Both the position numbers and the translations under genes were made by a program. Below, in pieces: positions 463-2,764 of a DNA stretch of 34,989 bases. The stretch comes from Actinomycetota bacterium (lineage in GTDB: Bacteria > Actinomycetota > Thermoleophilia > Miltoncostaeales > Miltoncostaeaceae). How positions within the stretch are numbered: the first letter of the stretch is position 1; each line of letters opens with the position of its first letter. The notes beneath the pieces were generated by a model, which had not been told where the DNA came from, made no database searches, and was given only the letters and a program-made list of their open reading frames with translations. Where the stretch lies: the NCBI GenBank assembly GCA_005792725.1, contig SXQZ01000121.1, forward strand, positions 1-34,989. Reading direction: 5' to 3'.

Positions 463-747
463 GTGGCCACCGCCGCATCCACCCCGCCCACGCGTGAGCA
501 GATCATGGTGCGCCTGCGTCGTGCCGAGGGGCAGTTGCGGGGGGTGCAACGCATGCTCGACGAAGGCGCTCCCTGTGACGAGGTGCTGGTGCAACTCGCC
601 GCCGTGACCGCCGCGCTCGACCAGGTGGGTCTGCACCTCATCGGCGAGCGCCTGCGCCAGTGCCAGCAGGCCGACGGCACCATGTGCGCCACCGAGCTCG
701 AGCAGGGGGTCGCGACCCTCCTGCGCCACACCCGCCTGTCCCGCTAG
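463..747 (+). CDS. CsoR/RcnR/CstR-family (DUF156) transcriptional repressor, His ligand absent
   Basis: GTG start at 463; RLRRAEGQLRGVQRMLDEGAPCDEVLVQLAAVTAALDQVGLHLIGERLRQC is the all-helical CsoR-family signature. The two Cys positions are conserved. Confidence 0.88.
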   Translation: MATAASTPPTREQIMVRLRRAEGQLRGVQRMLDEGAPCDEVLVQLAAVTAALDQVGLHLIGERLRQCQQADGTMCATELEQGVATLLRHTRLSR

Positions 748-1754
748 TACCGGCGGGCCGCCCCGGTGGACCCCGGTGCCGGCGTGCGGCCACGTGACCA
801 CCGCCACCCCAGTTCGATACCGATGATGGCCAGCACGGAGATCGTGCCCGTGGTGCCGATCACGCCGACGTGGCCCGCCAGCGGGCCCTCGAAGTGGAGC
901 ATGAACGCGCCGTAGAGCAGGCCCGCAGCGCCGAGCCACGCGGCGTTCGGGAGCCGGGCGGTCGTGGTGCCGCCGACGAAGGTGCCGCCGAAGAACGCGG
1001 TGGCCAGCACGACTCCCGTTCCGCCGAGGCCGCTCGCCACGATGACCCCGCAGACCGCCAGCGACGGCAGGCCGGATGCGAGGTTGAAGCCCCAGCCGAG
1101 GCGGTTCATGAGGACCCAGGTGATGAGCGCACCCGCTGCCCCGATGGGCACCACCGCCCAGTGCGCCATGCCGTCCGTCCCGGGGAGCAGCACGGCGTTC
1201 TGGTCGTGCCCCGTGAGATCGGCGATCCAGTAGACCGCCGCCGATGCCATGAAGCCCACCAGACCCATCCGCCCGCCCACACCCTGAATCACCGACCGGC
1301 CCACGAACGTCCACAGGAGGCCGGCCAGCACGCCGGCGACGGCGACCCAGTACCAGCCCAGGGTGATGTTGGGGGTGAGGAGGCCCACGAATGAGCCTGT
1401 GTAGCCCGCGCCCGCCGAAATGGCGTCCAGCGGCCCGCCCGGGAGGGCGCCGACGCCGCACGCCACGGCCACCAGCGCGGCGGCCACCAGCGGCGGGATC
1501 CCCATCTCCCGGGCCATGAGCAGCGACGCCATCGTGCCCGCAAGGGCGGTGATGACCTCGACGGGCCGCGGGCGCAGGAGGGGCAGCGACGTGCGGACGG
1601 CGTACCCGGCGCCGATGACTGTGGGGATCCCGATGATCACCACCAGAATCGTCGGCACGGGGTCCGCACCCAGGACGAATGACTGCACGTACATCCCCGC
1701 CAGCGCCACGAGCACGACCGCCCCGAGCACATAGGTTGCGGGAGTGGGTTTCAT
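744..1754 (-). CDS. Uncharacterised polytopic membrane protein, copy B of a tandem pair (336 aa), internal two-fold repeat
   Basis: MKPTPATYVLGAVVLVALAGMYVQSF...; multiple hydrophobic segments; closely similar in layout and motifs to the product of 1751..2764; ATG at 1754 overlaps the upstream stop. Confidence 0.85.
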   Translation of the reverse strand: MKPTPATYVLGAVVLVALAGMYVQSFVLGADPVPTILVVIIGIPTVIGAGYAVRTSLPLLRPRPVEVITALAGTMASLLMAREMGIPPLVAAALVAVACGVGALPGGPLDAISAGAGYTGSFVGLLTPNITLGWYWVAVAGVLAGLLWTFVGRSVIQGVGGRMGLVGFMASAAVYWIADLTGHDQNAVLLPGTDGMAHWAVVPIGAAGALITWVLMNRLGWGFNLASGLPSLAVCGVIVASGLGGTGVVLATAFFGGTFVGGTTTARLPNAAWLGAAGLLYGAFMLHFEGPLAGHVGVIGTTGTISVLAIIGIELGWRWSRGRTPAPGSTGAARRY

Positions 1755-2764
1755 ACCGGGGGGTGCCCCGGCACCGCGCGTGGCCGACGGGCACCTCGGG
1801 TGGCGATCCCGCCGGCGACGCGCAGGACCCCCATCACCACGAGCACCGCGATCACGGCGAGCACCCCGAGCACGCCCACGTGGCCCGCGATCGGATCCGG
1901 GAACGGGAGCAGGTGGGCCCCGTAGAGCATCCCCGCGAACCCGATCCATACCGCGCCGGGCAGTTGGGCCGGTGCCGAGATGCCCACCATCGTGCCCCCG
2001 AACCACGCGGCGGCGAACACGGGGGCCAGATCGCCCATGGACGAGAGGTAGACACCACCGCACACGAGGAGCGAGGTGAGCCCCGATGCCAGGGCGAAGT
2101 CCCACCCGCGCCGTTGGATGAGCACCCAGGTGACCGTGGCGGCCACGGCCCCGATCGGGACCACCGCCCCCTGGGCGAGCCCATGGAACTCCGGAAGGAG
2201 AACGACGTCGTGCACGCCGCCGAGCGCGGTGCCGAACCAGTACACCGACGATGACGCCATGAAGGCAACCAGGCCCAGGCGTCCGCCGACCCCGGGGAGG
2301 ACCGATGGACCGATGACCGAGGCCAGGAGGCCCGCCATGGCCCCGGCCCCGGCAACCCAGACGGATGGCACCACGATGCCGGGGGGGACCAGCCCCACGA
2401 ACGCCCCGGCGTACCCCGCGCACTCCGACCTCACGTCAAGGGGGCCCCACGGGGCCACCAGCATCCCGACGAGGACCACCACGATCGACATCGCCACCAG
2501 CGCCGGGATGTGCATCTCGCGGACGAGGAGCAGCGCGAGCGCCGCGGTGGCGGCCCCGGCCGCAATATCACCCACGCGCGGACGCGGCACGCGGGTCGAG
2601 GCGCGCACGGAGACGACCGCGCCGACCACGGCGAGAGCGCCCACGAGGGCCACCGCAACGAGGGTCAGCGGCGCCGTGCCCACCACGACCGCCATCGCGT
2701 ACACCGCCGCGAGCGATGCGAGGACCAGCGTGACCAGCCCGTACGTCCAGACGGTCGGCCTCAC
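1751..2764 (-). CDS. Uncharacterised polytopic membrane protein, copy A of a tandem pair, internal two-fold repeat
   Basis: GTG start (CAC at 2762-2764) overlapping the HAD stop (GTGA); MRPTVWTYGLVTLVLASLAAVYAMAVVVG...; shares AGYxGxFVGL, GVGGRxGLVxFMAS, LASGLxSLxVCG and FGGTxVG motifs with the downstream paralog. Confidence 0.83.
   Translation of the reverse strand: MRPTVWTYGLVTLVLASLAAVYAMAVVVGTAPLTLVAVALVGALAVVGAVVSVRASTRVPRPRVGDIAAGAATAALALLLVREMHIPALVAMSIVVVLVGMLVAPWGPLDVRSECAGYAGAFVGLVPPGIVVPSVWVAGAGAMAGLLASVIGPSVLPGVGGRLGLVAFMASSSVYWFGTALGGVHDVVLLPEFHGLAQGAVVPIGAVAATVTWVLIQRRGWDFALASGLTSLLVCGGVYLSSMGDLAPVFAAAWFGGTMVGISAPAQLPGAVWIGFAGMLYGAHLLPFPDPIAGHVGVLGVLAVIAVLVVMGVLRVAGGIATRGARRPRAVPGHPPV

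Follow-up and report, generated by a model that had tools for sequence, protein, structure and literature searches.

Copies A and B, two adjacent genes in the window (the whole 34,989-nucleotide stretch of Miltoncostaeaceae DNA that was analyzed), are members of a new, uncatalogued family of ~330-residue membrane proteins, narrow and patchily distributed, with a familiar architecture and a real internal duplication. Our preferred reading, a tentative one, is that they act as channels or facilitators through which a small uncharged solute passes passively, with two inverted five-helix units arranged much as in urea transporters (UTs).

Both genes lie on the minus strand, in the order HAD-family hydrolase (3441-2761), copy A (2764-1751; 337 aa, GTG start), the first membrane gene downstream of HAD, and copy B (1754-744; 336 aa, ATG start), whose end meets that of a convergent CsoR/DUF156-family repressor gene on the plus strand (463-747). 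Four-base overlaps join HAD to A (GTGA, the HAD stop plus the A start) and A to B (ATGA), which suggests a single transcript, and HAD and copy A are probably cotranscribed. The copies are paralogs, as the initial annotation had claimed, with 47-48% identity across nearly their full length. Their codon-position GC resembles that of the adjacent HAD and CsoR genes, and dN/dS among orthologue pairs (about 0.13-0.36) indicates purifying selection, so A and B are real, constrained genes.

The family had been called unrecognized, and scans of A and B against Pfam, NCBIfam and PHROGs returned zero matches at E ≤ 1, while 33 family members gave one isolated sub-threshold match each in Pfam and NCBIfam. 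Sequence searches of the PDB with a single protein and with a profile yielded chance matches only; no relative was found on the viral contigs searched, nothing was retrieved by Foldseek against viral models, and a plasmid search with copy B and a Thermoleophilia relative as queries found none. Members were present in 17 of 20 genomes of the window's genus and, within one family of the same class, in 4 of 16. Beyond the genus they are rare, occurring in genomes G020, G060 and G494, in the low-GC genome G341 and on one haloarchaeal plasmid. The plasmid protein, from Natrinema zhouii (WP_226777817.1; L104:11752-12729) and annotated 'hypothetical protein', is a distant member of the same family, with CGSFVGM/CASFVGM and GFGGKYG/GTGGKLG blocks in its halves; it is single copy and its neighborhood is unrelated to the A/B locus. 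Two very weak matches within the phylum (G220, G229) and one in G555 were discarded, being short and located in unrelated frames. Eight residues, seven of them glycine, were invariant in 33 members (G120, G124, G145, G160, G164, L215, G297 and G300), and Arg82, Arg218 and Thr212-Trp213 were conserved in the genus. Public records with this locus were labeled Miltoncostaeales, Thermoleophilia or, loosely, Actinobacteria MAGs, with some other names; two MAG records titled Bifidobacterium breve (L058, L063) have genes matching the Thermoleophilia locus and are likely mislabeled.

The internal two-fold repeat of the helix bundle is secure at the level of the family profile. Aligning its halves (residues 62-176 vs. 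~197-312; 33 sequences) gave a probability of 97.7%, E = 1.4e-12 and a score of 80.5, compared with a best score of 19.5 from 100 column shuffles, and N-half against C-half profiles of 26 sequences gave E-values of 6.8e-9 to 9.1e-8. For comparison, the halves of UTs show a stronger internal repeat (E = 2.3e-36). Single sequences ranged widely by Smith-Waterman, from z = 2.7 in copy B, exceeded by the best of 200 shuffles, and a moderate z = 4.4 in copy A, to z = 17.3 in the G341 member and z = 18.5 in the Natrinema zhouii protein, which has the clearest internal duplication. In that protein, AYCGSFVGM...GGFGGKYG of half 1 aligns with AFCASFVGM...GTGGKLG of half 2. The symmetry is unusually legible in this family, the archaeal halves aligning directly. 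In copy B, repeat 1 (residues 62-180; 1215-1571, minus strand) contains five helices with GYTGSFVG (117-124) and GVGGRMG (158-164), and repeat 2 (residues 197-320; 795-1166, minus strand) contains five helices with FFGGTFVG (254-261) and the GHVGVIG segment (294-300). Helices that correspond between the two units of the model are 64-83/201-217, 88-102/223-241, 111-123/245-260, 134-154/271-286 and 162-180/298-320. The ~136-residue offset reported from the sequence fits both these pairs and the profile alignment, and the half-half profiles together with the single-sequence repeats indicate that the four-copy motif described in A and B is genuine.

The copy B structure was modeled with AlphaFold2 from a 32-sequence alignment (pLDDT 89.4, pTM 0.89). 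The model has 12 helices in a 2+5+5 pattern, two of them short: 5-28 and 35-54, which lie outside the repeat (residues 1-54; 1593-1754, minus strand); 64-83, 88-102, 111-123, 134-154 and 162-180; and 201-217, 223-241, 245-260, 271-286 and 298-320. The G341 member, which shares 24% identity with B, was also modeled (pLDDT 79); the two models draw on mostly shared alignment rows and are not fully independent. Across the family, basic charge marks the C-terminus and the loop at 53-66 (more narrowly 55-63), and acidic charge the linker at 179-203 (more narrowly 181-200), so by the positive-inside rule we infer that the two five-helix units begin on opposite membrane faces, that is, are inverted.

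Fold searches of both models pointed to UTs. Searching the PDB with copy B, Foldseek ranked Desulfovibrio UT entries first to third (probability 0.77-0.80), followed by a fourth match at 0.13. With the G341 model, the top match was human UT-A3 (probability 1.00), the scores for five chains of bacterial UTs were 0.77-0.94, and the best non-UT among the proteins listed reached 0.21. UTs were thus the sole credible fold match for models of two divergent members, at E-values of 0.02-0.16, TM-scores of 0.30-0.37 and rmsd of 9.5-16.6, which lie under the usual same-fold level. Together with the internal repeat and the predicted helix pattern, these matches support the channel- or transporter-type architecture proposed in the initial annotation. 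The likeness to UTs had been suspected from the motif ahead of the fold search result.

The resemblance extends to general organization. Proteins of the UT family (PF03253; SLC14; dvUT 3K3F, human UT-A3 8XDE) are also ~330 aa long with two homologous halves that repeat detectably by profile, and they too have 12 helices including two short ones, a count that for A and B comes from the predicted model; the UT fold consists of two inverted halves with 10 transmembrane and two pore helices, and UTs conduct urea as homotrimers. G-x-F-V-G and GxGGKxG of the A/B family follow an order comparable to that of the UT signature blocks. The UT repeat is longer than that of A and B, however, whose family has two N-terminal helices outside the repeat, and neither a Pfam match nor similarity in any of three types of profile comparison connects the two families. 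By hhalign, the family against 13 UTs gave a probability of 0.7%, with no sequence homology overall or repeat-wise, and merged-repeat profiles against UT gave 1.2% (reversed control 0.6%). The PF03253 profile, which recovers four genuine UTs from other genomes of the phylum, matched neither A nor B nor any of 33 members, and the UT signature blocks NNPxTG, GLxGxNxxL and LPxxTxPF, taken from the UT alignment, are absent from the family alignment. Given these E-values, TM-scores and the lack of sequence homology, the best reading of the models is that A and B may work like a UT; we do not claim that they are UTs.

The main alternative, possible but in our view somewhat less likely, is that the proteins have an inverted 5+5 fold of their own, unrelated to UTs, and act as a secondary active transporter or an ion channel; the UT match would then reflect a coincidence between compact inverted-repeat bundles. 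An undetectable sequence relation to UTs and TM-scores of about 0.35 are consistent with this, and the genus-conserved Arg82, Arg218 and Thr212-Trp213 could form an ion or anion site. Yet all matches above 0.21 in the two fold searches were UTs, and the CLC, FNT, aquaporin and other transporter entries listed scored at most 0.21. FNT channels, aquaporins and Rh/AmtB proteins are small-solute channels, several with inverted repeats; against copy B, these and other small-solute channels had Foldseek probabilities of at most 0.10 among the entries listed, and no sequence match.

We also assessed whether A and B act as two subunits of one heteromeric pore working with the HAD phosphatase, as first proposed, which now appears improbable. 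The overlaps between HAD, A and B would suit such a complex, and most genomes having the locus carry two copies of the membrane gene. Copy number nevertheless varied within the genus, where the locus runs penicillin-binding protein, small gene, HAD, membrane gene(s), CsoR and thioredoxin: G001, G006, G007 and G011 have one copy at intact loci, indicating that one gene can suffice, G016 has three, and G008 and G012 have none, with intact flanks and no detectable remnant of the membrane gene in the ~505 and ~169 bases, respectively, between HAD and CsoR. In G010 the contig ends beside CsoR. G014 has a frame-broken gene at the syntenic locus (L033:6276-7283), with a TAG stop and frame shifts, explained by either pseudogenization or misassembly. 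In the tree, A and B fall in separate clades; the A clade is partnered by B here and by another clade in G013, G015 and G018; G001 and G006 have a B-clade protein and no partner. Zero to three copies and a changing partner of A argue against an obligate A-B heterodimer; facultative mixing may occur. With absent, single, double, triple and broken copies in one genus, the locus is well suited to comparative tests.

The proposed coupling to the HAD phosphatase fared no better. In three genomes of related genera (G020, G024, G033), HAD and CsoR lie tail-to-tail, 18-61 bases apart, with no membrane genes there, so the link of HAD to the membrane genes looks positional, and the simplest history is that a membrane gene was inserted between two old neighbors, then duplicated and lost. 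The arrangement with HAD and CsoR is kept in the genus, and the surroundings of distant members showed neither a HAD nor a CsoR homologue; the neighbors of those members include citrate synthase, an O-antigen-ligase-like gene and an epimerase-type gene. At two loci (L096:3928-5382 and L099:5672-7039) the family gene is divergent from an adjacent O-antigen ligase-like (Wzy_C) gene, which may point to an envelope context. That the proteins are structural or enzymatic, perhaps serving lipid or envelope biogenesis, and transport nothing is very improbable. In favor of it, the conserved residues are mostly Gly and Ala with few candidate polar pore residues, at least two relatives adjoin an O-antigen-ligase-like gene and neighbors give no substrate clue. 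Against it, duplicated helix bundles whose halves are opposed typify transporters and channels, the fold matches are channels, and the family has no conserved catalytic-looking residue set.

Under the preferred reading, a UT-like channel or facilitator, two N-terminal helices would precede a pair of homologous five-helix units that enter the membrane in opposite orientations, and in each unit the third helix, a short one, bears the G-x-F-V-G motif. Every subunit would contain a separate pore, placed as in UT on the pseudo-two-fold axis between the facing units, and a small uncharged solute could flow through it passively. The tandem copies would be lineage-specific duplicates, which may differ in substrate or co-assemble. 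The urease alpha subunit was absent from all 20 genomes of the genus in a search that was positive in control genomes, and the PF03253 profile detected no urea transporter in the window's genome, which makes urea doubtful as the substrate; it is unlikely to supply nitrogen by way of urease. Ammonia, water and other small neutral solutes are speculative candidates.

A more specific proposal, in our view somewhat doubtful, is a prokaryotic channel family reaching from Thermoleophilia to haloarchaea that is a compact relative of the UT fold and conducts a small solute other than urea. If true, UTs would no longer be the one family representing this fold, and the new, second family would retain legible traces of its internal duplication. 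Should the UT likeness hold, it would offer a second, sequence-unrelated-looking case for the origin of this channel fold by duplication, from organisms without detected urease.

The neighboring CsoR/DUF156 repressor has Cys38-Arg63-Cys67 where Cys-His-Cys is expected. The position of His in the copper HXXXC motif (PMC4528141) is occupied by Arg in the window and in all 19 congeneric loci read, so the protein, judged by its sequence, is probably not a copper sensor. It may be a persulfide (CstR-like) sensor, and a thioredoxin gene is adjacent.
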